This document shows positions 20,237 to 52,253 of a stretch of 64,000 bases of DNA, one piece after another; within the stretch, counting starts at the first letter, position 1; every line of letters begins with the position of its first letter. Position numbers and translations under genes: made by a program. Under the pieces are notes generated by a model. The model saw only the letters and a list, made by a program, of their open reading frames with translations, searched no databases and was not told the DNA's origin. This stretch comes from Marinobacter szutsaonensis. Its GTDB lineage: Bacteria > Pseudomonadota > Gammaproteobacteria > Pseudomonadales > Oleiphilaceae. The stretch is taken from positions 2,418,001 through 2,482,000 of the forward strand of contig NZ_BAAAFC010000001.1 in NCBI RefSeq assembly GCF_039523335.1, written 5' to 3'.

Positions 20237-20274
20237 TTTTTCATTCCGCTAACCTGGAGCCTGAACTTGAAAGC

Positions 20275-20304
20275 GGGGTCAGAAGAACGCTTTCTTCTGA
20301 CCCC
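20275..20304. repeat. Family 1 palindrome, copy B (AAGAA subtype)
   Basis: GGGGTCAGAAGAA and its inverted partner TTCTTCTGACCCC surround a 4-base loop. The C/G ends are the same as in copy A, but the central codon-like triplet is AAG instead of ATG. It lies 16 bases beyond the pckA stop. Confidence 0.9.
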
Positions 20305-20320
20305 ATGTTCACTTCGAAAC

Positions 20321-30013: not shown

Positions 30014-30050
30014 CATCATGGGTAGTATTCTGCAGGCAAGGATGAGAGCG

Positions 30051-30155
30051 AGGGTGTGGTTGACCTTTCCAAAAGTGTGCGGAGCCATGGATGGCGGAGC
30101 TCAAGCGCCCCATGGATGGGCTTGAAGCGTCTTTTGGAAAGGTCAACCACACCCT
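30051..30155. repeat. Family 2 element, copy 1, inside the type VI locus
   Basis: Arms of 25 bases (30051-30075 and 30131-30155) are exact reverse complements, around a core that contains GGAGCCATGGATGGCGGAGC and a smaller internal hairpin. It lies between the tssE stop and the tssF start, so any transcript through the locus could fold a very stable stem here. Confidence 0.92.
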
Positions 30156-30186
30156 TGCTCGGGGCCAGACTAGTGGTGCAGTAGCA

Positions 30187-31959
30187 ATGAAGTTAAATCG
30201 CTTTTACAGGGACGAGTTGAGCTTTCTGCGGGTGCAAGGCAGGGAATTTGCCGAAGCACACCCGCAGCTCACCCGCTTTCTGTCCGAACAGAGCACCGAC
30301 CCGGATGTAGAGCGTTTGCTGGAGGGCTTTGCCTTCCTGACCGGCAAACTGCGGGAAAAAGTCGAGGACGAATTTCCGGAGCTGACCCATTCGTTGCTGA
30401 ACATGCTCTGGCCCAACTACCTGCGGCCAGTGCCCAGCTGCACCATCATGCGTTTTGATCCGCAGCTGCATGCCATCAGTGAGCGTCAGGTGGTGGATCG
30501 TCATACCGAGATCAAGAGCCGTCCCCTGGGCGATTCCACCCGTCAGACTCAATGCCGGTTCCGGACCTGCCGGGCAGTGGACGTGTTTCCCATCAGTGTG
30601 GCGGGGGCGAGCGCCGAGCATTCGCGGGAAGTGTCTTCTGTCACCGTGAATCTGGCCCTGCATACCGACCAGCCGCTGAATGGTATCGGCCTCGAGAGCC
30701 TGCGGTTTTATCTGGGTGGTGACACTCACACGGCAGAGACCCTGTACCTCTGGCTGAACCATTATCTCAGCCGGATAGAGCTGGTGGTGGGGGACAGTGT
30801 GTTCAGTCTGCCATCGGCCCTTTTGCAGCCGGTCGGCTTTGCGGCAGATGAGGCGATTCTGCCCTATCCCAAGAATGCCTATTCCGGTTACCGGATTATT
30901 CAGGAGTACCTGATTTTCCCGGAGGCCTTCCGGTTTGTCGACGTCACCGGGCTGAAATCCAGGTTGCCCGCGGCGCAGGCCGATGAGATCAGCCTGCGTT
31001 TCCATTTCAGCCGGATTCTGCCGCCGGACACCCGGGTGACCCGGAATTCCCTGCAGTTGTACTGCACCCCGGCGGTGAACCTGTTCAGTCACGAAGGCGA
31101 GCCGGTGGACCTGAACGGTCGCCAGACCGAATACCGTATCTCACCGTCCAGTCGCTGCCCGGAGCATTATGAGGTGTTCAGCATCGAGCAGGTGGAGGGT
31201 TGGCTGGAGGGCCGGTCTGGCCGCGGCGAGCCGCGCATCTACACGGCGTTCGAGAGCTTTCAGCACGAGGTGGAGCGGGATAGGGGGCGCACTGCGCTGT
31301 ACTACCGGGTTCGCACCCGCGAGAGCGTGCGAGGTGATGGTTTTGATCACTACATTTCATTTGTTCGCGGTGATGAAACCGAGTGCCTGAACCGCCAGGA
31401 AGCGGTGTCACTCACGCTCACCTGCACCAACCGGCAACTGCCCCAACAGCTGGCCGTGGGTGAAGTCTGTATGGCCACCGAAAGCACGCCGGCATTTGCG
31501 GCCTTCAGCAACATCACGCGACCCACGGCGACCTTGCGCTCGACGCTCGACGGCAGCCTGCTGTGGACGCTTATCTCCAACCTGTCGCTGAACTATCTGT
31601 CCATGCTGGATGTCGACGCCCTGCGCACCGTACTGCGGGTGTATGACTTCCGCGCGTTGGTGGACCGTCAGGCTGAGCGGGTCTCCCAGAAGCGGCTGGC
31701 GGGTATAAGCGGCATTGTTACCAAGCCGGTCGACCGGATGATCCGGGGGCTACCGGTGCGCGGTATCCGCTCAGAGCTGCAGTTGGATCAGCAGGGGTTT
31801 GCCAGTGAGGGCGACCTTTACCTGTTCGGCACGGTGCTGAGCCAGTTTTTTGCGCTTTACGCGAGCATTAACGCTTTTCACCAACTGGAAGTGGTGAATA
31901 CAGAGAATCAGGAACGGTACACATGGACGTTACAGCAAGGTCAGCAGCCGCTGATGTAG
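30187..31959 (+). CDS. tssF: TssF, type VI baseplate subunit
   Basis: 590 residues from the ATG at 30187 (MKLNRFYRDEL); the in-frame extension upstream is only the repeat read through. Family marks are YRDELSFLRVQGREFAEAHP, DPDVERLLEGFAFLTGKLREK, and ELTHSLLNMLWPNYLRPVPS near residue 75. It forms a TssK-TssF-TssG baseplate wedge. It overlaps tssG by 37 bases. Confidence 0.96.
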   Translation: MKLNRFYRDELSFLRVQGREFAEAHPQLTRFLSEQSTDPDVERLLEGFAFLTGKLREKVEDEFPELTHSLLNMLWPNYLRPVPSCTIMRFDPQLHAISERQVVDRHTEIKSRPLGDSTRQTQCRFRTCRAVDVFPISVAGASAEHSREVSSVTVNLALHTDQPLNGIGLESLRFYLGGDTHTAETLYLWLNHYLSRIELVVGDSVFSLPSALLQPVGFAADEAILPYPKNAYSGYRIIQEYLIFPEAFRFVDVTGLKSRLPAAQADEISLRFHFSRILPPDTRVTRNSLQLYCTPAVNLFSHEGEPVDLNGRQTEYRISPSSRCPEHYEVFSIEQVEGWLEGRSGRGEPRIYTAFESFQHEVERDRGRTALYYRVRTRESVRGDGFDHYISFVRGDETECLNRQEAVSLTLTCTNRQLPQQLAVGEVCMATESTPAFAAFSNITRPTATLRSTLDGSLLWTLISNLSLNYLSMLDVDALRTVLRVYDFRALVDRQAERVSQKRLAGISGIVTKPVDRMIRGLPVRGIRSELQLDQQGFASEGDLYLFGTVLSQFFALYASINAFHQLEVVNTENQERYTWTLQQGQQPLM

Positions 31960-32939
31960 CCGGGCTGGAACCCGTTCTGGGCAATGCGCGGCGATACAGT
32001 TTTTTTCAGTTGGTGGACCTGATTCACCGGCACCACGGTGATGATCTGGAGCGTGCGGGGAACGACGAACCACGTCAGGAGCGCATCCGGTTTTCCGCCT
32101 CCGCGGGTCTGGGCTTTCCCGGCAGTGATGTGGTGTCGGCGCTCTCGCCGGAGCATGAGCATGCGCCCTACCAGATGGAAGTCAGTTTTCTGGGGTTGCA
32201 CGGTTCCCAGTCGCCCCTGCCGGGTTACTACCTGGAGGATCTGGCCTGGGAAGCCGGGCAGAACCTTGGCGTGCGTCGGCATTTTCTGGATTTTTTTAAC
32301 CACCGGCTGGTAACCCTGTTCCACCGAGCCTGGCGCAAATACCGGTATTACATTCGCTTTCAGCCCGAGGCCAGCGATGGTTTTTCGGAGCTGGTCTTTG
32401 CCCTGACCGGACTGGGCGACAGCCGGTTGCGGGAAGCGACGCCGGTTAACTGGTCCAAAATGCTGGCTTATGCCGGCCTGATGGCGGGCCGGAGCCGATC
32501 GCCGGAAGTGGTCAGCGGCATCGTCGCCCATTGTTTTGATCTGGACGACGTCAGCATCGAGCAGTGGGTGCTGCGCAAAGTGGACATCGCCCGGGCCCAA
32601 CAGACCTCCCTGGGCAGGGCCAACGCCGCCCTGGGTGAAGACACCCTGGTGGGCTCGCGCATCCGGGATCGCAGCGGCAAGTTCGTACTCCGGCTACGCA
32701 ACCTGGCCCGGCAGCGATTCGCGGATTTCCTGCCCAACGGCCGGGATCACCAGCGCCTGGTCAAACTGGTGGAATTCACCACCCGGGAGCAGCTGGCCTA
32801 TGACTTGGAGTTGCAGATGCGGCCGAAAGACATCCGGCCGATGGAGCTGGGAGAGGATGTGAGGCTCGGTTGGAACTCCTTTGTAACCCCGGAACGGGCC
32901 CGCCAGAGACCGGCAGTACGGATACAGATCAGACGTTAG
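31923..32939 (+). CDS. tssG: TssG, type VI baseplate subunit
   Basis: 338 residues. It begins in the end of tssF, implying coupled translation. TssG features are RRYSFFQLVDLIHRHH near residue 25, RIRFSASAGLGFPGSDV, a long central FNHRLVTLFHRAWRKYRY and a C-terminal FLPNGRDHQRLVKLVEF. It bridges TssF and TssK in the baseplate. Confidence 0.95.
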   Translation: MDVTARSAAADVAGLEPVLGNARRYSFFQLVDLIHRHHGDDLERAGNDEPRQERIRFSASAGLGFPGSDVVSALSPEHEHAPYQMEVSFLGLHGSQSPLPGYYLEDLAWEAGQNLGVRRHFLDFFNHRLVTLFHRAWRKYRYYIRFQPEASDGFSELVFALTGLGDSRLREATPVNWSKMLAYAGLMAGRSRSPEVVSGIVAHCFDLDDVSIEQWVLRKVDIARAQQTSLGRANAALGEDTLVGSRIRDRSGKFVLRLRNLARQRFADFLPNGRDHQRLVKLVEFTTREQLAYDLELQMRPKDIRPMELGEDVRLGWNSFVTPERARQRPAVRIQIRR

Positions 32940-32956
32940 GGCAGGGAGCCAGAGAC

Positions 32957-34267
32957 GTGGCACATCAGACAGCAGAACTCACACTGGTGATCACCAACCC
33001 CACCGAAACCGGCGGTGGTGCCAGTATTGAGCACAGTTTCGACAATGCGGGTGGTTCCATCGGCACCGCAGCCAGTGATACCTGGAAACTATCCCCCCAT
33101 CGAACCGGTGCGGTGCCCGGCCATGCAGAAGTCCGTTATCACGATGGCGGTTTCTGCCTGATTGACCGCAGTGGTCGCACCTATATCAACAGCAACAGTC
33201 AGCCGGTGGGCCGTGGCCGCCGCGCTAGGCTGAGCCACGGCGATACCGTAACGATTGGCCGCTACCAGATACGGGCGGAGCTGTCCTGCGTCCCGGAAAG
33301 CGGTGGCGAAATGGAAGATGGCCTTGGCGATCATCATGGGCTGCTAGATAGCTCTGAGAGCGACCTGAGACGCGTCACCACTGAGCAGAATCAGCCCGAA
33401 GGCCGGGAGCCATTGGAAGGTCTGCAATCGGCCGCAGGCGACCAGGTCAGTAGCGATCCGCTGGCGCAGTGGCAGCAAAAGTCTGGCCATCCGGATGAGG
33501 AAGCCCCTGAGCTGCTGGCCAGTGACCGGGCCTGGTTTGCCCGTTCATCCGAGGTCACCGATGAGTATCGCGAGAACCGGGATGTGGCCATGGGCCTGCC
33601 GGTAACCCCGCAACGCGAACATAAGGAACGACAGGGAATGCCCGAAAGCATACGAAATCCGCAGGAGGTCAGCCGCCAGCACATCAGTGGTGCGCCGCTG
33701 CTTCGGGGGCTGGATGCTGATATTGATTTTGCCGACAGCGACGAGATGCGCCTGTTTCTGGAAGAAGCCGGTCAAACCCTCAAGGCCACGGTGGAGGGAT
33801 TGCTGGCGCTGCATCAGGGTGAAGACAGCCGCCATCAGGCTCTGCGCACACGCTTGCAGCCCATCGAGGATAACCCGCTGCGCCTGGCTAATGACTATCC
33901 CGAAACCATCCAGACCCTGTTTGCTGCCCAGCGCAGCCCGGTGCATCTGTCAGCCCCTGCCGCGGTCCGGGAGAGCCTGGAAAGCCTGAACCATCACCAA
34001 CAGGCCACCCGTGAAGCCATTCGCGCGGCGCTGGAGGCCATTTTGCACGCCTTCTCACCGGAAGCGTTGCTGCGCCGGTTTCACGGCTACCGCAGAGGGC
34101 TTCAGGACAACGAAGACGAAGGCCGCTGGGCCTGGGACATGTACCGACATTATTACCGTGAACTGAAATCCAGTCGTCAGCAGGGGTTTGAACGCCTGTT
34201 CCAGGAAGTGTTCGACCAGGCTTACGACCAACACTTGCGCCAGTTACAGAGGGAGAAACTGTTGTGA
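32957..34267 (+). CDS. Fha/TagH, type VI FHA-domain protein with degenerate FHA site
   Basis: 436 residues from GTG at 32957. An N-terminal FHA-like fold spans about residues 8-110. The strand usually reading (I)GR...(S)RxHA is IGTAASDTWKLSP ... VPGHAEVR here, so the Arg and Ser that hold phosphothreonine in FHA domains are absent; GHAEV and LIDRSGRTYINS retain the shape. A linker follows, then a C-terminal T6SS FHA helical domain (about 280-436). It equals V. cholerae VCA0112 by position. No PpkA/PppA is present, which agrees with a phosphorylation-independent role. Confidence 0.88.
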   Translation: MAHQTAELTLVITNPTETGGGASIEHSFDNAGGSIGTAASDTWKLSPHRTGAVPGHAEVRYHDGGFCLIDRSGRTYINSNSQPVGRGRRARLSHGDTVTIGRYQIRAELSCVPESGGEMEDGLGDHHGLLDSSESDLRRVTTEQNQPEGREPLEGLQSAAGDQVSSDPLAQWQQKSGHPDEEAPELLASDRAWFARSSEVTDEYRENRDVAMGLPVTPQREHKERQGMPESIRNPQEVSRQHISGAPLLRGLDADIDFADSDEMRLFLEEAGQTLKATVEGLLALHQGEDSRHQALRTRLQPIEDNPLRLANDYPETIQTLFAAQRSPVHLSAPAAVRESLESLNHHQQATREAIRAALEAILHAFSPEALLRRFHGYRRGLQDNEDEGRWAWDMYRHYYRELKSSRQQGFERLFQEVFDQAYDQHLRQLQREKLL

Positions 34268-34797
34268 AGTACTGCAAATGGAGCTTGCTGGTTGTTGCTT
34301 TGATTCTGGGGGGATGCAGCACCCCGTATAACGCGGTCACCAAGACCGCCAAGGTGCTTTGGAATCCCGACATTCCCGTGGGTTACCCGGAAGACCTGCC
34401 CAGCCGGGTAGATCTGACCATGCTGGCGGAATCGGACGTGAACCCGAACGGATCCCTGGCGCCGACACCCATCGCGTTTCAGGTGATCGAGCTGCGGGAT
34501 AGCTCCTTGTTGATGGCCGGTGATTTCGACCAGTTGCTGAACGACCTGGAGGATTCACTGGGCCAGAACTATGTCGGCCATAGCGATTACAGCCTGGTGC
34601 CCGGCCAGTTCAGGTTTGTGGAACCGTTTGAGGTGAGTGAAGACACCCGGTACATCGGTGTGATCGCCTTTTATGCCTACCCGAACCTGTCCCAGTGGAA
34701 GAAGGTTGTAAAGGTCGATCCGATTGGCGGGCGCTACCACCTGCTGGTGAATTTGCGTGAGCGCGAAGTTCAACTCAGACGGTCGGATGAAAGCTGA
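34264..34797 (+). CDS. tssJ: TssJ, type VI outer-membrane lipoprotein
   Basis: 177 residues from GTG at 34264, overlapping the Fha gene by 4 bases. The lipoprotein signal MKYCKWSLLVVALILGGC places the lipid-bearing Cys at residue 18. The rest is a transthyretin-like domain with PSRVDLTMLAESDVNPN and LPTPIAFQVIELRDSS-type strands. It anchors TssM to the outer membrane. It shares a TGATG junction with tssK. Confidence 0.95.
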   Translation: MKYCKWSLLVVALILGGCSTPYNAVTKTAKVLWNPDIPVGYPEDLPSRVDLTMLAESDVNPNGSLAPTPIAFQVIELRDSSLLMAGDFDQLLNDLEDSLGQNYVGHSDYSLVPGQFRFVEPFEVSEDTRYIGVIAFYAYPNLSQWKKVVKVDPIGGRYHLLVNLREREVQLRRSDES

Positions 34798-36131
34798 TGG
34801 CAATGACGAATCGAGTGGTCTGGAGTGATGGGCTGTTCATCAAACCCCAGCACTTCCAGCAACAGCAACGCTATATGGAACACCAGATTAACGAGCGGGC
34901 TCTGGCCGTCTCGGATTATCTGTTCGGGTTCAGTGATCTGGAGCTGAGCGCTGAGTACCTGAGCTTTGGCCGGGTCGGATTGGTGCGGGCCTCCGGACTG
35001 TTTCCGGACGGCACCCGGTTCAATCTGCCCCAGGACGATGTGATGCCGGAGCCTCTGGAAATTACCGACGCCTCGGTGGCCAACCAAGTGGTCTATCTGG
35101 CGTTGCCGTTGGGGAGCGACAATCTGGCCGAAGTCGAATGGCCGGAGGTGCCCGTGGCCGGTCGATTCCGGGCGCAAACGGTGGAAATCCGCGACCTGCA
35201 CTCCATCGACGGGGATGCCCACTCCATCGATGTGGGCCGGGTAGCACCGCGCCTGATGCTGGAGCGCGAAGACCGCAGTGCCTATGCGGCGCTCGCCATT
35301 GGCCGGATCCTGGAAAAACGCCCCGACGGAAGCCTGGTGATGGACCCGAACTTCCTGCCGACCATGCTCAGTGTGCGTTCTGCACCAAGGCTGCAGCGTT
35401 TTGTTGGTGAAATGGCGGGATTGATGCAGGAACGCGCCCGCAACATTGCCGAAAGGGTTGGCGCACCGGGGCAGGGCGGCGTGGCGGATGTGTCCGATTT
35501 CATGTTGCTGCAGATGCTGAACCGGGCGCACCCGAAATTCATGCACCTGGCCCGGCTGCGCCAGCTGCACCCGGAGCGACTGTACGAGGCGCTTCTGGAG
35601 CTGTGTGGCGAGCTGGTGACTTTTACCGATGAAAGCCGGTTGCCCAAGGAGTTCACTCCCTACGACCACGATCTGCCGGAGGGCTGCTTCAGCCCGCTGA
35701 TGCAGATTCTGCGGCAGGCGCTGAGCACCGTACTGGAGCCACGGGCCTTGTCCATTGCATTGCAGCAACGCCAGTACGGCCTCACAGTAGCGCCGGTACA
35801 GGATGGTCAGTTGATGAGCGACGCCGAGTTCATTCTGGCGGTCAAAGCCGATATGCAGCTGGATGACCTGCGCAAGCAGTTTGTGCAGCAGTGCAAGGTG
35901 GCCTCGGTGGAGAAAATCCGCGATCTCATCAGTCTGCAACTGCCGGGCATTCCGCTATCAGCACTGCCGGTGGCCCCACGTCAGCTGCCGTATCACGCCG
36001 GTTTTGTTTACTTCCGCCTGGACGACCAGAGTCAGGCCTGGCAGATGCTCGACAACGCCAGCGGCTTTGCTTTCCACGTGGCGGGCAGCTACCCGGGGCT
36101 GGAAATGCAATTCTGGGCAATCAGGAGCTAA
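34797..36131 (+). CDS. tssK: TssK, type VI baseplate-to-membrane connector
   Basis: 444 residues. The family opening NRVVWSDGLFIKPQHFQQQQRYMEH is present (key words VVWSDGLFIKPQHFQQQ), as are LPLGSDNLAEVEWPE and the C-terminal FRLDDQSQAWQML. It is related to phage receptor-binding proteins and docks the baseplate on TssJLM. It begins one base inside the tssJ stop, so the two are coupled. Confidence 0.97.
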   Translation: MAMTNRVVWSDGLFIKPQHFQQQQRYMEHQINERALAVSDYLFGFSDLELSAEYLSFGRVGLVRASGLFPDGTRFNLPQDDVMPEPLEITDASVANQVVYLALPLGSDNLAEVEWPEVPVAGRFRAQTVEIRDLHSIDGDAHSIDVGRVAPRLMLEREDRSAYAALAIGRILEKRPDGSLVMDPNFLPTMLSVRSAPRLQRFVGEMAGLMQERARNIAERVGAPGQGGVADVSDFMLLQMLNRAHPKFMHLARLRQLHPERLYEALLELCGELVTFTDESRLPKEFTPYDHDLPEGCFSPLMQILRQALSTVLEPRALSIALQQRQYGLTVAPVQDGQLMSDAEFILAVKADMQLDDLRKQFVQQCKVASVEKIRDLISLQLPGIPLSALPVAPRQLPYHAGFVYFRLDDQSQAWQMLDNASGFAFHVAGSYPGLEMQFWAIRS

Positions 36132-36134
36132 ATC

Positions 36135-36956
36135 ATGGCAGATGCACCGGTAATGGACAGACCAGGTAGCACCGGGGATTCGGGTGATCGTGCATTCAGC
36201 GACCTTTTGTTTGCCGATAACGGCGCCCGGAACTCCCGGATCGAATCCGGTGACAGCCACTTCCAGCTTCGGGGCCTTGCGGACAACCGGCTGATCGATG
36301 CCGCCACGCCCCTGCTGGGGTTGGTGATCCGGGTGCGGCGGCTGGCGAATTTCCGCGGGGTGGAGTCTCTGTACCAACAGGTGGTGGACGAAGTGGCTGC
36401 CGTGGACCGGGAACTGGTGGAGCAGGGCTATGAGCGCCCCACGGTCGTGGCCTATCGCTACGTACTCTGCGCCTTTATTGATGAGGCCGTGCTAGGCACG
36501 GACTGGGGTGCCCACAGTGTCTGGTCCCAGCACTCGCTGCTCAGCCGGTTCCACAACGAGACCTGGGGCGGCGAGAAGGTGTTCGCCATCCTGGCCCGTA
36601 TGGAGAAGGAACCGACCCGTTACCGGGACATGCTGCAGTTCATCTACCTGTGTCTGTGCCTGGGGTTTGAAGGTCGTTACAAGGTCATGGAAAACGGTCG
36701 GGATGAATACGAGCAGGTCGTCCGTGGCCTCTATGACCAGCTTCGGGAACTGCGCGGTGACCGGGATAGCCGGCCCCTGGCGGATGCTTCGGAAAACGTT
36801 GCCCCGGCCCGCAATCGGTTGCGCACCGGATTGCCCATCTGGCTGATTGGGGGCCTTTTTGTGGCTGCCATGGCCGGAATTTACCACTTGTACAGCATTG
36901 CGCTGAACGAACGCATCAGGGGCGTGCTCAGCGTACTGGACCAACTACCGAAATAA
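36135..36956 (+). CDS. tssL: TssL, type VI inner-membrane DotU-like protein (short form)
   Basis: 273 residues. A cytoplasmic hook-like domain contains FADNGARNSRI, LFCAFIDEAVLGTDWG-like (ALCAFIDEAVLGTDWGAHS, key word FIDEAVLGTDWG) and SRFHNETWGGEKVF, followed by one C-terminal membrane helix at about 235-258 (LPIWLIGGLFVAAMAGIYHL). It has no OmpA-like peptidoglycan-binding extension, so cell-wall anchoring must come from another protein. It lies three bases after tssK. Confidence 0.95.
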   Translation: MADAPVMDRPGSTGDSGDRAFSDLLFADNGARNSRIESGDSHFQLRGLADNRLIDAATPLLGLVIRVRRLANFRGVESLYQQVVDEVAAVDRELVEQGYERPTVVAYRYVLCAFIDEAVLGTDWGAHSVWSQHSLLSRFHNETWGGEKVFAILARMEKEPTRYRDMLQFIYLCLCLGFEGRYKVMENGRDEYEQVVRGLYDQLRELRGDRDSRPLADASENVAPARNRLRTGLPIWLIGGLFVAAMAGIYHLYSIALNERIRGVLSVLDQLPK

Positions 36957-36966
36957 GGAAATCACT

Positions 36967-39609: not shown

Positions 39610-39640
39610 CCTGGAGGCCTCCTGAATCGTAGCGCACCGT

Positions 39641-39730
39641 GAGGTTGAGCTTTCCAAAACCCTGCGGAGCCATGGATGGCGGAGCGGAGCCTACAGGGAT
39701 GTATTCACGGCATGTTTTGGAAAGCCACCC
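39641..39730. repeat. Family 2 element, copy 2, inside the type VI locus
   Basis: Core TGCGGAGCCATGGATGGCGGAGC with an adjoining segment CTACAGGGATGTATTCACGG, flanked by a 12-base exact inverted pair (GCTTTCCAAAAC at 39649-39660, GTTTTGGAAAGC at 39714-39725) that extends imperfectly outwards. It sits between tssH and vasH. Confidence 0.9.
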
Positions 39731-39782
39731 CGCAGGATGCGCGGGCGACGAACTCCTAAGTAATCATTTTGGAAACAGAAAC

Positions 39783-41989: not shown

Positions 41990-42000
41990 GGAATGATGGC

Positions 42001-43449: not shown

Positions 43450-43485
43450 CGCCCGCAAGACGCAACGAACGCAGGAATGGAAACC

Positions 43486-46400
43486 ATGTGGAGAAAAGCA
43501 TTACTCATTGGTCGTTGGCTTCTGCCCTACATCCGCAGCGCCGCCCCCGCCACCCTGGCTCTGGGTGTGATCGCCCTGCTGGTGGCCACCTGGTGGCTGG
43601 GACCGCGCCTGGAAATCAACGGAGACTACCCGCTGATGGCCTGGCAGATGCGTGCTCTGGTCACTCTGGGGGTGGTCCTGCTGGTGGTAATTGTCTGGGG
43701 CACCATGCTGGCCCGTCGCCTGGGTAAGGTGAACAAGGCCAAAGCTGAGGAGCAGCGGGAGCAGGAAGACCCGATTCTGCCCATGGAGCGTCGCCAACAG
43801 CGGTTGCTGGACCGACAACTGCAGGCATTGAAAAGCAACCTGCCGGGTCGTAAGGGCCTGTACCGCCTGCCCTGGTATCTGGTGATGGGCCTGGAAGATG
43901 CGGGCAAGACCAGCCTGATCCAGCGGGCCGGGCAAACCTATACCCTCACCAACGTCACCCGTAACAACCTTGGCGATCGTAACCCGTTCAGTTTTGACTG
44001 GTGGATTGGCGACAACGGTGTCTTGATCGATCCGGATGGCGAACTGCTGAGCCAGAACCAGGTTGAAGGCGCCACCGGGGAAATCCAGAGCCGGCTGTGG
44101 AATCACTTTATCGCCTGGCTGGAGCGAAGCCGGCCCCAGCGGCCGCTCAATGGCGTTATCCTGGCCGTGGATCTTGCGCGCCTGAGTGCCTCCAACGAAC
44201 AGCAGCGTGAAGCCCACGCCATTCTGCTGCGTACCCGCCTGCGGGAGCTGATGGAACAGCTGGGTTCCCGGCTGCCGGTGTATGTGACCTTCACCAAGAT
44301 GGACCTGATGTACGGCTTTGCGCCCTTTGTGCGTACCCTTAGCAAGGCCGAGAAAGACAAGGCCCTGGGTTTCACCTTCCGGCTGGACGGCCAGCAGGAT
44401 CAGGACCAGTGGCTGGAACAGTTCGCCGAGCGCTATGCCGATATGGCGGACGAGCTCACCGAACGCCTGCCGGACATACTGGCCAACACCCGTGATAACG
44501 AAGAACGGGCGGCGGCGTATTCGTTCACGCGCCAGTTGGCGGGCCTGAAGCCGGCCATGGAGCAGTTCCTGACGGATTTGCTGTTGGCGGATGCCTTTTC
44601 CACACCGGCGCTGGTGCGCGGAACCTACTTCACCTCGGTGTTACAGGAAGGTGTGCCCGAGGATGCCTTTGTCTCGGCCGCGGCCCGGAACTACCAGATG
44701 TCGGATCCGATCCAGCCGGCCCAGCGCGGTGGGCAGTCGGCAAGCCTGTTCACCAAAGGTTTGTTCCCGGACATCATCTATCCGGAAGCGGGCCTGGCCG
44801 GCGATAACCGTCGGGTAGTGCGCCAGCGTCATCGACGGGTGGCGGTTTCGGCCGTGTTGGCGGTGGCTGCCGGTGCGGGTATGACTGCAGGCTGGCAGCA
44901 CTATTTCATCCAGAATGCCGAAGCCGCCGCCCAGGTAGAAAATCGGGTGAAAAGCTATCTCAACGACTGGCACCCGGTTGGCTACGAGCCGGACACTACA
45001 GGTCGCAACCTGCTGCAACCGCTGGATGAATTGCGGGATGCCACCCTCGCCTTCGGTGATTACCGTAAGGAATGGCCGCTGGTAACCGACATGGGGCTGT
45101 ACCAGGGGCACAAGGTAGGCCCGGAAGTGGATAAGGCTTACCTGAACATGCTGGCCTATCAATACCTGCCCGCGCTGATGTTCGGCGTGATGGAAGAAAT
45201 GGGGCAGGCGCCGGATAACAGCACGGAGCGGCTCGAACACCTGCGCGTGCTGCGGATGATTTACGATGCCAGCGGCCGCCGTACCGACATCGTCTCCGGT
45301 TACATGCGTGAGTACTGGCAGTCCCGGTTCCCGGGCCAGCGCGATGTGCAGAACCGCCTGTATGGCCACCTGCAATACGCCATGGCCCATACCGACCTGT
45401 CCGACCTGGCGGCCAACGGTGACCCCACCGCCACCATGGCGCTGGCACCATTTCGCAGCAGTGTTCAGTGGGCGCAGCATGAGCTTGGCCGTATCAACAC
45501 TTCCGACCGCGTCTATCGTGAACTGGAGAACGAGGCCAGTCGGGACTTTTCGGCACCGCTGGAGCTGGCCCGCAGCTCCGGCCCGGCTTTCTCCTCCGTG
45601 TTCACAAGGTTGGACAGCTATGGTGAGCCCATCACCGAAAACGTGCCTTCGGAACAGGACCCCCTGTCGATACCGGCCTTGCTGACCCGTAAAGGCCTGG
45701 AAAGAGGGTTTCTGCGGCAGTCCGGTTCGGTGACCGAGCTGGCACTAATTGATGCCTGGGTCCTGGGCCGCCGGGATGACGTCGACTTCAGCAAGGCCGA
45801 CGAAGCCGAGCTTCTGGCCAGCCTGCAGACCCTGTACGCGGAGCATTACGGTGAGGCCTGGCGCACGGCACTCAACCGACTGGATATCCATCGGTTCGAA
45901 GACCTCAACCATGGGGTTCGCATTCTCGATAGCCTGACCAGTGGGCACGAACCCCTGGCCAGACTGCTGGATCAGGTGCGGGAGAACACCCGGCTGATAC
46001 CCGTGGAGGGTGGTGAAGCCGAGGCCGCACGCAAGCTGCTGGAGCAATCGCCCCATTACCGCATGTTGCAGGACATAGAGCGCCAGTTCAGTGAGCTGAA
46101 CCAGCTTACTGATAAGCAGGGTGAGGTACCCTCCGGCCTGGAGGAAATCATGCTGGTCGTGGGAGAGCTACATGAATACCTTCGGAACATTCAGGAATCC
46201 CCGGATACCGGCAAAGCCGCCCTCAGTGCCGCCCGTGCCCGAATGGGCCTGCAGGGTGCCGATCCGATTTTCACCCTGCAGCGCATGGCCGGTCATCAGC
46301 CCGAACCCCTGAACCGGATACTCAACCGTCTGGCTACGGAAAGTTGGCGAGTGGTTCTGGACAGCGCTGTGGCCCAACTGGAGCGAGACTGGTACCGGGA

Positions 46401-47070
46401 GGTTTATCAGCCCTTTCAGCAGAATCTGGCCCGGCACTACCCGTTCACACAGGAGGCAGGGCGTGACGCTGCTCTACAGGATTTCGAGCGTTTCTTTGCC
46501 CCGGATGGCACTCTGGAGACCTTCTATAACGAGAACCTGAAATTGTTCCTGGATGACCATCCGGAGCATGTAGGCGACGCCCGCCGGGCCAGCCTGGTAC
46601 GCCGTGATGTGCTGGCGTCACTGGAGCGGGCCAGGCGGATTCGGCAGGCTTTCTTTACCCGCAGTGGCACCCTGGACGTGGAGTTTGCCCTGGAGCCCCT
46701 GAATCTGAGCAACAACAAGCGCCGTTCGGTGGTGAACATCGACGGCCAGCTGGTGGAGTTCTCCCATGGCCCGCGCCAGAGTATCCCGCTGGTATGGCCC
46801 AACACACTGAGAGATGCGGTGGAAACCCGAATTACGCTGGTGCCAATACAGGTCAACCGCTCACCCAGAAGCATTTCCGAAAGCGGTCCCTGGGCCCTGT
46901 TCCGGTTGTTGGGCAAAGCAGACATTACCGGGGTGAGCAGTAATGCGGTGGATGTGAGGTTCCGTGTCGACGATGGGGAAATGAAATACCGCTTGCATGC
47001 CGGCAGTAATACCAACCCTTTCACTCAGCAGCTGCTGGCAGGGTACCGGATACCTCGAAGTCTGTATTGA
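43486..47070 (+). CDS. tssM: TssM, type VI inner-membrane channel protein (IcmF/VasK)
   Basis: 1194 residues from the ATG at 43486 (MWRKALLIGRW), with AGGA at 43473-43476; an ATG 9 bases earlier has no such site. Membrane helices lie at about 22-42, 55-75 and 448-468. The cytoplasmic part has a Walker A GLEDAGKTS (about 135) and NGVILAVDLARLS. The long periplasmic C-terminal region (about 470-1194) contacts TssJ. It is the last gene of the locus and is followed by paired palindromes. Confidence 0.96.
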   Translation: MWRKALLIGRWLLPYIRSAAPATLALGVIALLVATWWLGPRLEINGDYPLMAWQMRALVTLGVVLLVVIVWGTMLARRLGKVNKAKAEEQREQEDPILPMERRQQRLLDRQLQALKSNLPGRKGLYRLPWYLVMGLEDAGKTSLIQRAGQTYTLTNVTRNNLGDRNPFSFDWWIGDNGVLIDPDGELLSQNQVEGATGEIQSRLWNHFIAWLERSRPQRPLNGVILAVDLARLSASNEQQREAHAILLRTRLRELMEQLGSRLPVYVTFTKMDLMYGFAPFVRTLSKAEKDKALGFTFRLDGQQDQDQWLEQFAERYADMADELTERLPDILANTRDNEERAAAYSFTRQLAGLKPAMEQFLTDLLLADAFSTPALVRGTYFTSVLQEGVPEDAFVSAAARNYQMSDPIQPAQRGGQSASLFTKGLFPDIIYPEAGLAGDNRRVVRQRHRRVAVSAVLAVAAGAGMTAGWQHYFIQNAEAAAQVENRVKSYLNDWHPVGYEPDTTGRNLLQPLDELRDATLAFGDYRKEWPLVTDMGLYQGHKVGPEVDKAYLNMLAYQYLPALMFGVMEEMGQAPDNSTERLEHLRVLRMIYDASGRRTDIVSGYMREYWQSRFPGQRDVQNRLYGHLQYAMAHTDLSDLAANGDPTATMALAPFRSSVQWAQHELGRINTSDRVYRELENEASRDFSAPLELARSSGPAFSSVFTRLDSYGEPITENVPSEQDPLSIPALLTRKGLERGFLRQSGSVTELALIDAWVLGRRDDVDFSKADEAELLASLQTLYAEHYGEAWRTALNRLDIHRFEDLNHGVRILDSLTSGHEPLARLLDQVRENTRLIPVEGGEAEAARKLLEQSPHYRMLQDIERQFSELNQLTDKQGEVPSGLEEIMLVVGELHEYLRNIQESPDTGKAALSAARARMGLQGADPIFTLQRMAGHQPEPLNRILNRLATESWRVVLDSAVAQLERDWYREVYQPFQQNLARHYPFTQEAGRDAALQDFERFFAPDGTLETFYNENLKLFLDDHPEHVGDARRASLVRRDVLASLERARRIRQAFFTRSGTLDVEFALEPLNLSNNKRRSVVNIDGQLVEFSHGPRQSIPLVWPNTLRDAVETRITLVPIQVNRSPRSISESGPWALFRLLGKADITGVSSNAVDVRFRVDDGEMKYRLHAGSNTNPFTQQLLAGYRIPRSLY

Positions 47071-47126
47071 TTGGGTTGGGGCGAAGGCCCGGGGCTCAGC
47101 TTATGCCACAGTTTGCAGTCCAAGCA

Positions 47127-47156
47127 GGGGTCAGATGAAAGCGTTCATCTGACCCC
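47127..47156. repeat. Family 1 palindrome, copy E (ATGAA subtype)
   Basis: GGGGTCAGATGAA-AGCG-TTCATCTGACCCC, a perfect 13-bp-arm hairpin, between the convergent tssM and rsmD genes. Confidence 0.92.
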
Positions 47157-47187
47157 ATCTTCACACCCAAAGCTCGCGACCCAAGTC

Positions 47188-47217
47188 GGGGTCAGAAGAA
47201 GGCTTTCTTCAGACCCC
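47188..47217. repeat. Family 1 palindrome, copy F (AAGAA subtype)
   Basis: GGGGTCAGAAGAA and TTCTTCAGACCCC, with one mismatch in the arms. It lies 31 bases after copy E and 10 bases before the rsmD stop. Confidence 0.9.
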
Positions 47218-47227
47218 AAGACCATGC

Positions 47228-47866
47228 TCACTCCCCGTCGATCTCACTTGGCACCCGGAACAGGCAATAGCTCACTTGTCCGGCGGTTTTCTGCCGGTGT
47301 AGTTGCCAGCCTGACGGAACCGCCGGCATTGGCAGTTCGCGCTCGTGCTCGACATACACCCAGCCTCCGCGTTTGACCCATTGCTGGGACTCAAGGAGCG
47401 GAAACAGCCGATCCAGCCAGCCCTGTCGGAAGGGCGGGTCCATGAAGATGATGTCGAAGGGTGGGCGCTGGCGGTGGGCCAGGTAGGTTTCCACGCCCTG
47501 GCAGACGACGTCGCCCTTGTCCGATTTCAGCAGGCGCAGGTTATCCCGCAGGGCCTTGGCCAGGGCCGGGGTGTGGTCCACAAACGTAGCGGAACCGGCA
47601 CCGCGGGACAGGGCTTCCAGCCCGAGCGCGCCCGAACCGGCGAACAGGTCCAGGCAGTCCGCGCCCGCAATGTGGTAGTTCAGCCAGTTGAACAGGGTTT
47701 CCCGGGTGCGGGCCGGGGTGGGGCGCACGCCGCCGGCATCGGGGAAGCGGAGTTTCCGGCTGCGCCAGTCGCCGCCGATGATTCGCAGTTCGCCGCTGCC
47801 GCTTTGGGCGTCGGGTTTCCGGGACGGTGAGCCGGGTTTGCGGCGGGCTGTTCTGCGTTGCGCCAT
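47228..47866 (-). CDS. rsmD: 16S rRNA (guanine-966-N2)-methyltransferase RsmD
   Basis: 212 residues from the ATG at 47866 (MAQRRTARRKP), with GGAG 6 bases upstream. A basic N-terminal extension precedes the conserved LRIIGGDWRSRKL and RPTPARTRETLFNWL; the SAM site is DLFAGSGALGLEALSRGA and the catalytic motif is IIFMDPPF. The enzyme methylates G966 of 16S rRNA. The gene is divergent from ftsY, a common gammaproteobacterial arrangement. Confidence 0.97.
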   Translation of the reverse strand: MAQRRTARRKPGSPSRKPDAQSGSGELRIIGGDWRSRKLRFPDAGGVRPTPARTRETLFNWLNYHIAGADCLDLFAGSGALGLEALSRGAGSATFVDHTPALAKALRDNLRLLKSDKGDVVCQGVETYLAHRQRPPFDIIFMDPPFRQGWLDRLFPLLESQQWVKRGGWVYVEHERELPMPAVPSGWQLHRQKTAGQVSYCLFRVPSEIDGE

Positions 47867-48027
47867 GGGGTGCTCCGGGGTACTGGGCAAGATGAATCGA
47901 TGCGCCGTTATGGTACCGGAAAGCGGTGCGCCTTTGGATAACCCGGCGGCCCCTCACTTAAACCTGGCAGTCTGCTAGAATGTCGGCTTTGTTTTCGCCC
48001 GCCCATTTCCAGACAGATGGTAGAACT

Positions 48028-49233
48028 ATGACGGCAGAGTGGATTTCAATCGGCCTTTTGGCCCTTCTTGTGCTCTTCTTTGTGGTGGATGTTGCCGGTA
48101 ACCGCAAGCGGGTACCCCGGCCCAAGCCCGTTCCCCAGCGCAAGCCGGAGGTGGCCAGAGGGCCAGCCCCGGCCGAAGAGCCCGAGACGAAAGAAGCCCC
48201 CGAAGCCGAAGCACCGGCTGCACCGGAAGCCCCTGCCGAAGCACCTGCGGAAGAGAAGCCCGTCGAAGCACCCGCTCCGGAAGCAGTGCCCGAGCCTGCG
48301 CCGGAACCCGAGCCCCAGGTCAGTGTGTTCGAGCGGATCAAGCAGGGCCTTGGCAAGACCCGGGCCAGCCTGACCGGTGGTCTTGCCGACCTGTTCTCTG
48401 TCGGCAAGAAGATTGACGAGGATCTGCTTGAGGAAATCGAGACTACGCTGCTGATGGCGGATGTTGGTGTCACCGCCACCTCCGAAATCATCGATTCGCT
48501 GACCGACAAGCTCGAGCGCAACCAGCTCAAGGACGGTGAGGCGCTGCGCAAGGCCTTGCGGGATGAGTTGCACGGCTTGCTGAAGGATGTCACTAAGCCC
48601 CTGGAGATCGATGCGGGCAAGAAACCCTATGTGATTCTCATGGTGGGTGTGAACGGCGTGGGCAAGACCACCACCATCGGCAAACTCTCCAAGAAGTTCC
48701 AGGCCGAAGGCAAGTCGGTCATGCTGGCCGCCGGCGATACCTTCCGGGCGGCGGCTGTCGAGCAGCTGCAGGTCTGGGGCGAGCGCAATAACGTGCCGGT
48801 TGTGGCCCAGGAAACCGGTTCCGACAGCGCCTCGGTGATCTTCGATGCGATCCAGTCGGCCCAGTCCCGTGGCACGGATGTGGTCATTGCCGATACCGCC
48901 GGCCGCCTCCAGAACAAGGAAAACCTGATGAACGAGCTCGCCAAGGTCGTTCGGGTCATGAAGAAGCTGGACGAATCCGCGCCCCACGAAGTGATGCTGG
49001 TGCTGGACGCCGGCACCGGCCAGAATGCCCTGAGCCAGGCCCAGGTGTTCCAGCAGGCGGTGGGTGTATCCGGCATTACCCTGACGAAACTGGACGGCAC
49101 CGCAAAAGGCGGTATCGTATTCGCCATTGCCCGTCAGTTGCAGCTGCCGATCCGCTTTATCGGTGTCGGCGAGCAGGCCGAAGACCTGCGCAGTTTCGAT
49201 GCCGAAACCTTTGTCGACGCGCTGTTTGACTGA
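48028..49233 (+). CDS. ftsY: FtsY, signal-recognition-particle receptor
   Basis: 401 residues from the ATG at 48028. The NG GTPase domain is complete: [37 protein letters not shown] and [10 protein letters not shown]. Before it is a Pro/Glu/Ala-rich acidic stretch (about 35-105). The first 25 residues, [18 protein letters not shown], look like a membrane-spanning helix, which is not general in gammaproteobacterial FtsY. A minimal protein could start at the GTG before FERIKQGL. It is followed closely by ftsE and ftsX. Confidence 0.95.
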
Positions 49234-49264
49234 GGCCGCGTTCTACCCGGAGCAGTAGTCACCG

Positions 49265-49966
49265 ATGATCGAATTTCGCCAGGTCACCAAACGCTATGAC
49301 AGCGACCACACGGCGTTGGCGCAGGTCAATTTCAGCCTGAACCGGGGTGAACTGGCCTTCCTGACCGGCCATTCCGGGGCCGGCAAGAGTACCCTGCTCA
49401 AGCTGATCATGGTGATGGAGCGCCCCAGTGCCGGGGAAGTGGTGGTCGGTGGCCAGCTGCTGAACCGCCTGCCGCGCCGGCAGATTCCCTATATCCGTCG
49501 CCACATCGGCGTGGTGTTCCAGAACCACCAGTTACTGTTCGATCGCACCGTCTTTGACAACGTCGCCATGCCCCTGGGGGTCATGGGAGCCTCGCCCCGG
49601 GATATCGGCCGGCGGGTGCGTGCCGCGCTGGACAAGGTGGGCCTGCTCAACAAGGAAAAGATGAATCCGATGCAGCTGTCCGGCGGCGAACAACAACGGG
49701 TCGGCATTGCCCGGGCAGTGGTGAACAAACCGCCGGTGCTGTTGGCGGACGAGCCCACCGGTAACCTGGATCCGGAGCTTTCCGCCGACATCATGAACCT
49801 GTTTACCCGGTTCAGCCAGGTGGGCGTGACTGTGCTGATCGCCACCCACGACATCGGCCTGGTGAATGAAATGGACCGCCGGACCCTTACACTTGACCAC
49901 GGCCGCCTGATTGCCGGGGGCAGCTCGCCCCTGCAGGGTCCTGCGGGAGGTGTCAGTGGCCACTGA
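49265..49966 (+). CDS. ftsE: FtsE, cell-division ABC ATPase
   Basis: 233 residues. Walker A is GHSGAGKST, the Q-loop region VFQNHQLLFDRTVFDNVAMP, the signature LSGGEQQRVGIARAVV and Walker B LLADEPTGNLDPE. With FtsX it controls septal peptidoglycan hydrolases through a periplasmic activator. The start is 31 bases after ftsY, and its 3' end overlaps ftsX by 11 bases. Confidence 0.97.
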   Translation: MIEFRQVTKRYDSDHTALAQVNFSLNRGELAFLTGHSGAGKSTLLKLIMVMERPSAGEVVVGGQLLNRLPRRQIPYIRRHIGVVFQNHQLLFDRTVFDNVAMPLGVMGASPRDIGRRVRAALDKVGLLNKEKMNPMQLSGGEQQRVGIARAVVNKPPVLLADEPTGNLDPELSADIMNLFTRFSQVGVTVLIATHDIGLVNEMDRRTLTLDHGRLIAGGSSPLQGPAGGVSGH

Positions 49967-50960
49967 CTCACGCCGGAAAGTTGATACTGCCCGAGGTGCC
50001 AACACGGGGCGTTCCCCCTGGAAGGAGCAGGCCCGGAGTTACTTCGATCACCATCGCAAGGTGGCGAAGGACAGTGCGCTCCGTTTGTGGAAGACACCGG
50101 TGGGGACCGGGATGACCTGGACGGTGATGGGCGTCGCCCTGGCATTGCCGGTGGCACTGCTGCTGTTGCTGACCAGTTTGCAGGGCGTGAGTGCTGGCTG
50201 GGAGAGCAGTGCCCGGGTAACCGCGTATCTCCAGCTGGAGGTGCCCCTTGAGGACGCCCGGGCCCTGGTGGACGAAATCCGCACCGACAGCCGCATTTCA
50301 GACATTGAACTGGTGGACCGGGAGCAGGCGCTGGCGGAGTTCCGCGCCAATTCGGGCCTGGAAGATGCCCTGGACTACCTTGAAGAGAATCCCCTGCCGC
50401 ACACCCTGCTGATCACGCCGGACGAACGTAGCCGCTCGGCGACCGGGGTGGAGGCGCTGGTCACGTTTGTCCGGGGCCTGGAAGGGGTGGAGCGGGTTCA
50501 GGTTGACCTGGGCTGGCTGCAACGGCTCAATGCCATGACGGACTTGCTTGCCCGGGCGGTCTGGGCGCTGGCGATCCTGCTGGCAGCGGCAGTGATTCTG
50601 GTCATAGGTAATACGGTGAGGCTGGCGATCGAGAGCCGCCGTGATGAAATCCTGGTGGCCAAACTGGTCGGCGGCACCGACGCTTTCGTTCGCCGGCCGT
50701 TTCTCTATACCGGTGCCTGGTATGGTCTCGGTGGCGGCGTTGTCGCCTGGATTCTGCTGCAGATGTCTCTCTGGTGGCTCAGCGGCCCGATCGAGCGGCT
50801 GGCCGGGCTGTACCGGAGTGACTTTGCCCTGGCCGGCCTTGGCCTTGATGGGGTGCTGGCGTTGATTATTGTGGCAATGCTGCTAGGCTGGCTTGGCGCA
50901 TGGGTTGCGGTGAAGCGTCATCTGGATGACATAGAACCCGGCGATATTGCCGGTGGATGA
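49956..50960 (+). CDS. ftsX: FtsX, cell-division ABC permease
   Basis: 334 residues from GTG at 49956, which has GGGAGG just upstream and overlaps ftsE. A cytoplasmic basic N-terminus leads to membrane helix 1 at about 60-83, a periplasmic loop (ARVTAYLQLEVPLEDARALVDEI), and three further helices near 205-225, 250-275 and 300-320. The FtsX/MacB-type fold with ESRRDEILVAKLVGGTDAFVRRPFL is present. It completes ftsY-ftsE-ftsX. Confidence 0.95.
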   Translation: MATDSRRKVDTARGANTGRSPWKEQARSYFDHHRKVAKDSALRLWKTPVGTGMTWTVMGVALALPVALLLLLTSLQGVSAGWESSARVTAYLQLEVPLEDARALVDEIRTDSRISDIELVDREQALAEFRANSGLEDALDYLEENPLPHTLLITPDERSRSATGVEALVTFVRGLEGVERVQVDLGWLQRLNAMTDLLARAVWALAILLAAAVILVIGNTVRLAIESRRDEILVAKLVGGTDAFVRRPFLYTGAWYGLGGGVVAWILLQMSLWWLSGPIERLAGLYRSDFALAGLGLDGVLALIIVAMLLGWLGAWVAVKRHLDDIEPGDIAGG

Positions 50961-50981
50961 CCCGGAATGGTGATCCGGGTC
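50959..50981 (+). terminator. Hairpin at the ftsX stop codon
   Basis: GACCCGGA and TCCGGGTC pair over 8 bp and include the stop-codon end of ftsX. There is no T tract, so it may stabilise the mRNA end or reduce read-through to rpoH. Confidence 0.4.
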
Positions 50982-51108
50982 GCGGGAAAACCGTATTGAA
51001 AACATAGCTTGCGCTGACGTAGTTTGAGAATCAGCGAAAGCAACAGTGAATTTTCCAGGTAGTTGATTTAAAACGTTTTACTGGAAAGTTCGGGAACTTA
51101 TCAAGTTC

Positions 51109-51137
51109 TTGGCGGTCTAATTTTTAGTTGCTATATT
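51109..51137 (+). promoter_or_regulatory. Sigma-70-type promoter of rpoH
   Basis: TTGGCG (51109-51114), a 17-base spacer and TATATT (51132-51137) form a good promoter. Transcription should start near 51144, leaving a leader of about 23 bases before the rpoH ATG at 51167. Confidence 0.6.
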
Positions 51138-51166
51138 TAAAGGTCGTCAGGTTCGGAGGTAACTGA

Positions 51167-52027
51167 ATGGGTACGAGTTTACAACTGGTTGACAGACTGG
51201 TTCCGGGTGCCAATCTCGAGTCTTATATTCAGGCTGCGAGTCGCATCCCAGTGCTCTCAGCGGACGAGGAAAAGGAGCTGGCGGAAAGGCTCCATTATGA
51301 AGGCGACGTGGAAGCCGCCCGTCAGCTTGTACTCTCTCATCTTCGTTTTGTGATTCACATTGCCCGCAGCTATTCCGGCTACGGGCTGGCCCAGGCTGAC
51401 CTGATCCAGGAAGGCAATGTCGGGCTGATGAAGGCCGTCAAGCGCTTCAACCCGGAATACGGGGTGCGGTTGGTTTCTTTCGCGGTACACTGGATCAAGG
51501 CCGAGATTCACGAGTTCATTCTGCGTAACTGGCGGATCGTGAAGGTGGCCACCACCAAGGCCCAGCGCAAGCTGTTCTTCAACCTGCGCAGCCAGAAGAA
51601 GAAGCTGGCGTGGCTCAGCCATGATGAGCTTCAGGCGGTGGCGGCGGACCTGGGTGTGGAACCGCGGGTTGTCCGTGAGATGGAGGGCCGGCTGGCTTCC
51701 CATGACACGGCATTTGACGGTCCGATGGACGATGATGACGACAACGCCTACCAGGCGCCGGCGTATTACCTGGAAGATCGCCGCAGTGATCCGGCAACTC
51801 AGTTGGAGAACGCGGACTGGTCCGAGGATTCCAATGGTCGCCTGATGCAGGCGCTGGAAAGCCTGGATGAGCGTAGTCAGGATATCCTGCGGGAACGCTG
51901 GTTGTCCGAGAGCAAGTCCACGTTGCATGAGTTGGCGGACAAGTATGGGGTTTCTGCGGAGCGGATTCGCCAGCTTGAGAAGAACGCCATGAAGAAGATC
52001 AAAGTGAAGATGGCTGAAGCGGCCTGA
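51167..52027 (+). CDS. rpoH: Sigma-32, heat-shock sigma factor
   Basis: 286 residues, the normal RpoH size. Region 2 holds [34 protein letters not shown], and the RpoH box reads QRKLFFNLR at about residue 127, a heat-shock-sigma signature. Region 4 ends the protein ([26 protein letters not shown]). It sits after ftsYEX as in E. coli. GGAGG precedes the ATG. Hsp33 and Hsp15 genes elsewhere in the window are probable regulon members. Confidence 0.98.
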
Positions 52028-52050
52028 TCGGGTTCCGCCAAGCGATTGAG

Positions 52051-52090
52051 AAAACGCCACCACCGTTCGCGGTTGGTGGCGTTTTTGTTT
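52051..52090 (+). terminator. Intrinsic terminator of rpoH
   Basis: AAAACGCCACCACC and GGTTGGTGGCGTTTTT form a long stem with one bulge and a T-rich tail (GTTTTTGTTT), 24 bases after the rpoH stop. Confidence 0.9.
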
Positions 52091-52122
52091 GTATAATGGC
52101 GACATTGGCGGGCTGCAAAAGT

Positions 52123-52223
52123 CATTTGGGAGAGGCTTTCCAGAACACGCTGTGAATACGTCCCTGTACGCTCGGCTCCGCCATCCATGGCTCCGCACGG
52201 TTCTGGAAAGCCCCTCCCAAATG
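52123..52223. repeat. Family 2 element, copy 3, reverse orientation
   Basis: Arms of 24 bases (52123-52146 and 52200-52223) match with one mismatch. The core is the reverse complement of copies 1 and 2 (GCTCCGCCATCCATGGCTCCGC, with TGAATACGTCCCTGTA beside it as in copy 2). It lies between the rpoH terminator and the next gene. Confidence 0.92.
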
Positions 52224-52253
52224 CCTTTCGCGATATAGCTGTGAGTACAAGAA

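Follow-up and report, generated by a model that had tools for sequence, protein, structure and literature searches.

A dispersed family of hairpin elements in Marinobacter with putative CsrA sites in the cap and arms that change in concert

Introduction

How can the two arms of a long hairpin stay complementary while their sequence changes from one copy to the next? The question is raised by a 64,000-nucleotide stretch of the Marinobacter szutsaonensis genome (contig NZ_BAAAFC010000001.1, positions 2,418,001 to 2,482,000; hereafter the window), in which an earlier note, made from the sequence alone, had pointed to three copies of an element of about 100 bp that share a core and whose outer arms match within each copy. 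We find that these three copies belong to a family of RNA-like hairpin elements that is both old and dispersed. The family itself, its arm pairing, the motif in its cap, the concerted change of its arms, the strand asymmetry of its mismatches and its distribution are direct observations. As the best explanation of the whole we propose, at a probability of roughly one half, that the family offers decoy sites for CsrA, and that its stems are kept paired by template switching together with selection on the strand that carries the GGA motifs.

Results

Three copies in the window

A search of the window for the core GGAGCCATGGATGGCGGAGC, with up to three mismatches allowed, gives exactly three places, at 30081-30100 (+), 39666-39685 (+) and 52175-52194 (−); in shuffled sequence the mean is 0.02. 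The arms around these cores are the first three among ten inverted repeats listed in the window. They are 97% complementary over 30 nt in copy 1 (30046-30075 and 30131-30160), 91% over 32 nt in copy 3 (52115-52146 and 52200-52231) and only 76% over 29 nt in copy 2 (39632-39660 and 39714-39742), where the inner part is perfect. Both the shared core and the matching of arms within each copy, as first described, are thus borne out. Model R1, which was built on 44 genome copies including copies 1 and 3 and excluding copy 2, matches the window at 30050-30156 (+, 117 bits), 39635-39739 (+, 66 bits) and 52121-52225 (−, 105.9 bits); the next-best match reaches 12.6 bits.

Each copy has two cap hairpins set between its arms. 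In copy 1, on the plus strand, the inverted-repeat listing and R1 place the left arm at 30050-30075 and the right arm at 30131-30156, with complementarity reaching out to 30046 and 30160; sequence and family structure place cap hairpin 1, GCC-ATGGAT-GGC, at 30084-30095 and cap hairpin 2, CCC-ATGGAT-GGG, at 30109-30120, the predicted fold of this copy alone being different. The arms of copy 2, also on the plus strand, lie at 39635-39660 (left; inverted repeats, genome arm count and R1) and 39714-39739 (right; inverted-repeat listing and R1), and pair at 19 of 26 positions, perfectly in the innermost part. They enclose GCC-ATGGAT-GGC at 39669-39680, supported by sequence and predicted fold, and TAC-AGGGAT-GTA at 39692-39703, assigned from sequence and family structure. 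Copy 3 is on the minus strand and, read in the direction of the element, runs from its left arm (52200-52225) through GCC-ATGGAT-GGC (52180-52191; sequence and predicted fold) and TAC-AGGGAC-GTA (52157-52168; sequence and family structure) to its right arm (52121-52146), both arms being placed by the inverted-repeat listing and R1. When single copies are folded as RNA, cap hairpin 1 is present in the predicted structures of copies 2 and 3.

A family of 48 copies in the genome

Searched with up to three mismatches, the core pattern marks 48 places in the genome (3.96 Mb in 16 contigs), 24 on each strand, as against one for the reversed control. All 48 were extracted and their arms of 26 nt compared. 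Arms that failed to pair in most copies, the outcome named beforehand as fatal to the idea of a maintained stem, were not what we found: complementarity reaches at least 20 of 26 positions in 44 of the 48. The remaining four are copy 2 of the window, with 19, and three copies with an insert, in which the right arm lies beyond the scanned range. We had considered these three, which appeared to lack a right arm, as possible carriers of genes and rejected this; an insert of about 80 nt with hairpins of its own replaces the GGA loop of hairpin 2 (loci L018, L020 and L021; also L302, 5930-6114), and the right arm stands further on. The insert is present or absent between close species, with sharp borders.

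Over the 44 well-paired copies, arm pairing is 96.7% within copies versus 53.5% when the left arm of one copy is set against the right arm of another. In their alignment 99.1% of pair cells hold standard pairs, compared with 69.3% in shuffles, and 401 cells are changed on both sides, compared with 111.8, so that the covariation across collected copies that had been put forward as a check is present. The long external stem is poorly conserved in sequence. What conservation there is lies in the cap and the inner part of the arms, where a weak consensus can be made out, such as a GGG 17-19 positions away from the cap. Integron attC sites carry conserved recombination boxes at their outer ends; in the family no such boxes were found, and beyond position 28 no base exceeds 0.60.

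With genes called roughly, 40 of the 48 copies are clear of called genes, seven overlap a gene end and one lies inside a call; four of the seven overlaps fall at the ATG within the core and are perhaps wrong start calls. Long GC-rich hairpins between genes could be intrinsic transcription terminators, and when the sample is widened, orthologs included, 57 convergent gene pairs stand against 38 divergent ones. Of 251 elements, however, only 4 on the sense side and 9 on the antisense side have five T in a row close to the stem, and in the M. szutsaonensis genome itself nine copies lie between convergent genes and 10 between divergent ones (one further copy is uncalled). We consider a terminator function the most improbable of the alternatives discussed here.

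The cap hairpins fit the Rsm-binding motif

In the family structure the arms enclose two short hairpins, of which the first is GCC-AUGGAU-GGC and the second has forms such as UAC-AGGGAC-GUA. Both loops fit CANGGANG, which is given as the Rsm-binding motif in a passage of PMC6849547. How general this fit is was assessed on 299 elements, namely those with arm pairing of at least 19 of 24 among 316 distinct pattern hits in the collected loci; six Planctomycetota loci were left out beforehand, four other non-Marinobacter loci contribute none, and many of the 299 are orthologous to one another and hence not independent. Fourteen elements carry a long insert and were not scored; among the other 285, hairpin 2 fits CANGGANG in 280, and the first free position of the motif takes all four bases. 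This fit was not built in, because the search required no more than a closing C-G and three or more paired positions, and neither the A nor GGA. The five misses comprise two elements without a call, one with GGC for GGA and two with other octamers. For hairpin 1, which the search pattern itself contained, the fit is 298 of 299 and the loop is AUGGAU in 270 of 299; the loop of hairpin 2 is ANGGAN, with AGGGAC the commonest form.

Other genera of the order show the same in 38 matches, although the model that retrieved them already had the loops in it: hairpin 2 fits in 38 of 38 and hairpin 1 in 35 of 38, the three exceptions still holding GGA in a changed loop. On the strength of motif and covariation, the cap loops look like binding sites for CsrA/RsmA.

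Unpaired positions are asymmetric between the strands

Among the inner 22 arm positions of the 299 elements there are 6435 Watson-Crick cells, and the unpaired cells divide into 82 G·T, 23 A·C and 38 others. The excess of G·T over A·C has a p value of 6e-9 if cells are taken as independent, which those of related copies are not, and of 0.002 for the inner 19 positions. Mutation that treats the two strands equally should, by reasoning, yield G·T and A·C in equal numbers; we infer that folding is maintained for the GGA strand. Selection for an RNA hairpin had been one of two explanations offered for the maintained pairing, and it holds in part: the fit of hairpin 2 to CANGGANG and the G·T type of the mismatches support a folded single strand.

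A probable dispersed relative of TwoAYGGAY

At the gathering threshold, Rfam gives nothing in the window. At a looser threshold the element is matched by TwoAYGGAY (RF01731, clan CL00106, Csr/Rsm). Several Rfam matches to microRNA families were set aside as long hairpins matched by shape. In the genome the RF01731 model finds 41 places at E<=1, and it finds none in 14 control genomes. The earlier note knew of no named family with this description; a related one does exist, with the element falling just short of its cut-off. In the parts of the literature that describe it, TwoAYGGAY is proposed to bind CsrA and has an external stem that is "not well conserved" (PMC4333381), and it is listed from human gut, gamma-Proteobacteria and Clostridiales (PMC2864571). 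The likeness is one of build, with two adjacent GGA hairpins inside one long external stem that is poor in conserved sequence. The element differs in scoring under the gathering threshold, in having a hairpin 2 that is often AGGGAC rather than AYGGAY, and in occurring as tens of dispersed copies. It is best accounted for as a dispersed relative of TwoAYGGAY.

The decoy RNAs CsrB and RsmX/Y/Z are strongly expressed small RNAs that come from one or a few loci. They, like Aln1a-c of Alteromonas, offer GGA motifs to CsrA, as the element putatively does; the element differs in having two hairpin sites per copy, many copies and no known promoter. According to passages of PMC5864184, a study of CsrB-like RNAs in Alteromonas, Aln1a-c come from one intergenic region and have in common A(N)GGA motifs that lie where the RNA is single-stranded; within those passages Marinobacter is named only where read shares are discussed. 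For the repeats that it describes, PMC4679880 states that they are unlikely CsrA sites. A literature search did not find the core string GGAGCCATGGATGGCGGAGC, and a search of the literature on Marinobacter, or on CsrA, together with repeats or small RNAs found no such element.

Both sides of a pair change together

The orthologs of the copies in a close species, G002, allow us to ask how the arms change. For this genome 30 of 41 places were obtained as loci, together with further stretches, and 27 pairs with similar flanks on both sides were formed between the two species. Seven pairs with more than eight two-sided changes were left out. In the other 20, 441 arm pairs are unchanged, 19 have changed on one side and 54 on both sides with pairing kept; a further six have changed on both sides but lack pairing in one or both of the genomes. 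By our arithmetic, independent change at the one-sided rate would give about 0.2 two-sided cases as against the 54 observed. Under a stricter flank filter (mean identity 92.8%), 18 of 24 pairs contain 22 transitions and 19 transversions among two-sided paired changes, with 15 one-sided changes; all 24 contain 40 and 60, with 22 one-sided. Arm pairs thus commonly change on both sides together, far beyond what independent mutation would produce.

Pure compensatory evolution of an RNA, in which selection for pairing acts through G-U intermediates and no arm is copied, would agree with the excess of G·T over A·C mismatches and with the RNA-like cap. It fits poorly with the predominance of two-sided over one-sided changes (54 to 19) at sites whose flanks are only about 7% different, and the many transversions among the two-sided changes are not explained by a G-U intermediate. 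Even in the least-changed pairs, where the counts are 16 to 24, two-sided change is far above independence, and the asymmetry of mismatches persists in copies antisense to both neighbouring genes. We therefore regard compensatory evolution without copying as unlikely but not negligible. The single-step two-sided changes would instead reflect template switching in replication, acting in place on old copies. The correction of quasipalindromes by template switching is known from classic bacterial work; there, as here, the arms of an inverted repeat change together, and the family differs in presenting many orthologous copies of one element and a strand-specific bias of unpaired positions. Template switching has also been proposed for RNA hairpins, in a passage of PMC8794818.

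At the copy-3 site, 29 of 29 well-paired copies, that of the window included, stand in one orientation with many different arms; three extra pattern hits, paired at 12 of 26 and all located at a single off-site place with a poor core match, are attributed to chance. At the copy-1 site all 23 copies, again including that of the window, have one orientation, 22 are well paired and the arms are many. We had considered a flipping of the loop between species and rejected it, since after the loci were oriented copies 1 and 3 stand one way only. Cap types differ at some orthologous sites.

That the arms were made at insertion, the cap being inserted and one flank copied across as its complement, would explain why the outer arms differ between copies and the cap does not. 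Orthologous copies in other species pair with different arm sequences, however, and so the arms change after insertion; the arms also share a weak consensus, such as the GGG described above. This origin of the arms is very improbable. The idea that one arm is copied as the complement of the other is supported for old orthologous copies in place (54 versus 19), not as a step of transposition.

Two further hairpins were seen at orthologous sites in relatives. At the copy-1 locus of relatives (L160, L161, L163-L171 and L175) there is another palindromic insertion, with a conserved middle GGGAAAAAACAACTCGCTTCGCTCAGACATC..., whose arms by eye differ between species and match within each; it is perhaps a second family of a similar kind. 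Locus L328 of genome G082, orthologous to the M. szutsaonensis copy site at L298 6413, holds a different long hairpin with the middle AACAATCAGGAAAACCACGTTTTCCGTTTT.

Distribution across genomes

With at most one mismatch the core is found in 113 of 120 genomes of the genus, at 0 to 62 places each. Across the order, R1 matches at E<=1e-4 in 147 of 390 genomes and 64 of 142 genera (ten candidates scored per genome), and 15 chosen genomes outside the genus have 1 to 133 matches each (150 candidates scored per genome). Counts outside the genus may include plain hairpins, because R1 scores even the reverse strand of true copies at 41-50 bits. The 38 aligned matches inspected from other genera (26 of 30 returned loci, 13 of 15 genomes) have arms that are 98.6% paired, with 497 both-side-changed cells versus 133 in shuffles; a control on the number of further pair types is neutral, as it does not exceed that of the shuffles, 242 of 500 of which reach the value.

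In an exact-core scan of genome contigs, ten of the at least 119 matches listed are not Marinobacter. Among the matches listed these are nine stretches of Planctomycetota (metagenome-assembled genomes), two Kuenenia stretches being counted among them, and one of Deltaproteobacteria. In predicted folds, seven of the ten form the core hairpin and a second GGA hairpin; six of these seven sit inside a long stem of other sequence, the seventh (L206) ending at the contig end, and in L180, L195 and L224 the core is paired otherwise. The exact core has no match in viral contigs and the cap query none in phages or plasmids; a 62-nt composite query gave four short weak hits in plasmids (E 1-5).

Doublets, empty sites and the question of mobility

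Where two copies lie close together in the collected Marinobacter loci, 118-270 nt from core to core, they point away from each other in 17 of 17 distinct doublet sequences, of which three or more are orthologous to others; the genome's own doublets lie in L018, L028, L030, L031 and others. In other genera nine of ten close pairs are divergent and one (L426) is convergent. Comparison of empty and filled sites, proposed earlier as a way to define the ends, gave a single clean-looking site, where TGCGCG, a candidate target-site duplication, stands once in G077 and at both element ends in G002 and G122. At many other gap sites a piece of an arm or of the outer flank is left, and some sites are too short to judge; those for copies 1 and 3 include many partial deletions and others too bare to judge. 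In G122 one copy adjoins what we read as the remains of another.

These features invite comparison with REP elements and REPINs, dispersed intergenic palindromes associated with RAYT whose close doublets are inverted. The element resembles them in being a dispersed intergenic palindrome with close copies in inverted order, and differs in sequence and in the setting of the genome's Y1 transposase match, which has repeats of another kind around it. A mobile DNA element of the REP or MITE (miniature inverted-repeat transposable element) kind, whose GGA strand folds as single-stranded DNA with the cap as the recognition hairpin of a transposase, would account for the varying core count per genome of the genus (0 to 62), the random orientation, an asymmetry independent of genes, the divergent doublets (17 of 17, some of them orthologs), and the empty site in G077 and apparent nested copy in G122. 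Yet the only Y1 transposase (Y1_Tnp) match in the genome, at C1:868032-868358, has no R1 match within its 3327-base locus and is flanked by other repeats. No near-invariant short motif was found beside the arms, and no sign of a recent copy among the genome's own copies, the best outer-arm match between them being 15 of 18 versus 13-16 in shuffles. The fit to CANGGANG would, moreover, be a coincidence. We hold such an element to be an improbable explanation, about on a par with compensatory evolution.

Repeats of other kinds were noted alongside. Short palindromes of the form GGGGTCAGA(A/T)GAA...TTC(T/A)TCTGACCCC at 20268-20311 and 47122-47161 of the window resemble the repeats around the Y1 transposase match (L427), and are probably its REP elements. 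A cluster of these same repeats (GGGGTC...) at L302 9269-9376, also present in longer form in G002 and G078 and absent from the orthologous places in G077, G102 and G122, provides a clean filled/empty comparison.

Discussion

We propose that the family acts as a set of decoys for CsrA. The copies would be transcribed by any RNA polymerase passing through the intergenic region, or else from weak promoters close by, and RNA of the GGA strand would then offer CsrA dimers two well-placed sites, the long stem holding up the two CANGGANG cap hairpins. Tens of copies together may form a distributed decoy, or they may tune the RNAs in which they sit. The sequence of the stem would be largely free, pairing being what counts. 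Template switching at the hairpin in DNA replication would carry a mutation from one arm into the other, and selection on the GGA strand, the likely cause of the asymmetry, would clear much of the leftover unpaired cells.

Several observations weigh against this proposal. No conserved promoter-like block stands outside the arms in the flanks of the copies, and orientation to the neighbouring genes is random, with 14 copies sense to both and 14 antisense to both, which tells against a simple role in cis. The excess of G·T over A·C is also found in copies antisense to both neighbours (17 to 4), as it is in the other gene contexts (26 to 13, 18 to 2 and 7 to 1; 251 elements with gene calls, another 10 lacking a usable call and the rest of the set having too little flank). 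Because the excess holds in antisense copies and orientation is random, read-through RNA from neighbouring genes cannot be the whole account; the asymmetry leaves room for promoters of the element's own, pervasive transcription, a role as single-stranded DNA, or biased correction. No genome copy reaches the RF01731 cut-off of 43 bits, the best scoring 42.0, and copy 1, when folded alone, is predicted to pair its cap otherwise, without the two cap hairpins. In the least-changed ortholog pairs (at most three two-sided changes), 16 two-sided paired changes face 24 one-sided, a count that sums three overlapping comparisons and in which the excess over independence is still large, if weaker than 54 to 19. 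Finally, some orthologs differ at 9-12 of 26 pairs though their flanks average about 93% identity, and so some arms must have been replaced whole.

A bolder version of the decoy proposal, which we advance tentatively and consider possible rather than probable, is that the family is a mobile or once-mobile RNA element that has spread putative CsrA/RsmA sites, up to more than 100 per chromosome and in more than one phylum, its stems drifting by copying at the time of replication. If this were true, the free level of the regulator would be set partly by the copy number of a repeat.

For the long-standing question of how perfect pairing is preserved in long stems, the family provides a natural test. 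Many replicate stems per genome, with orthologs at several distances, allow the rates of one-sided and of two-sided change to be measured. Should the cap indeed bind CsrA, the tens to more than 100 sites in each genome would alter models of the Csr/Rsm system in these bacteria.

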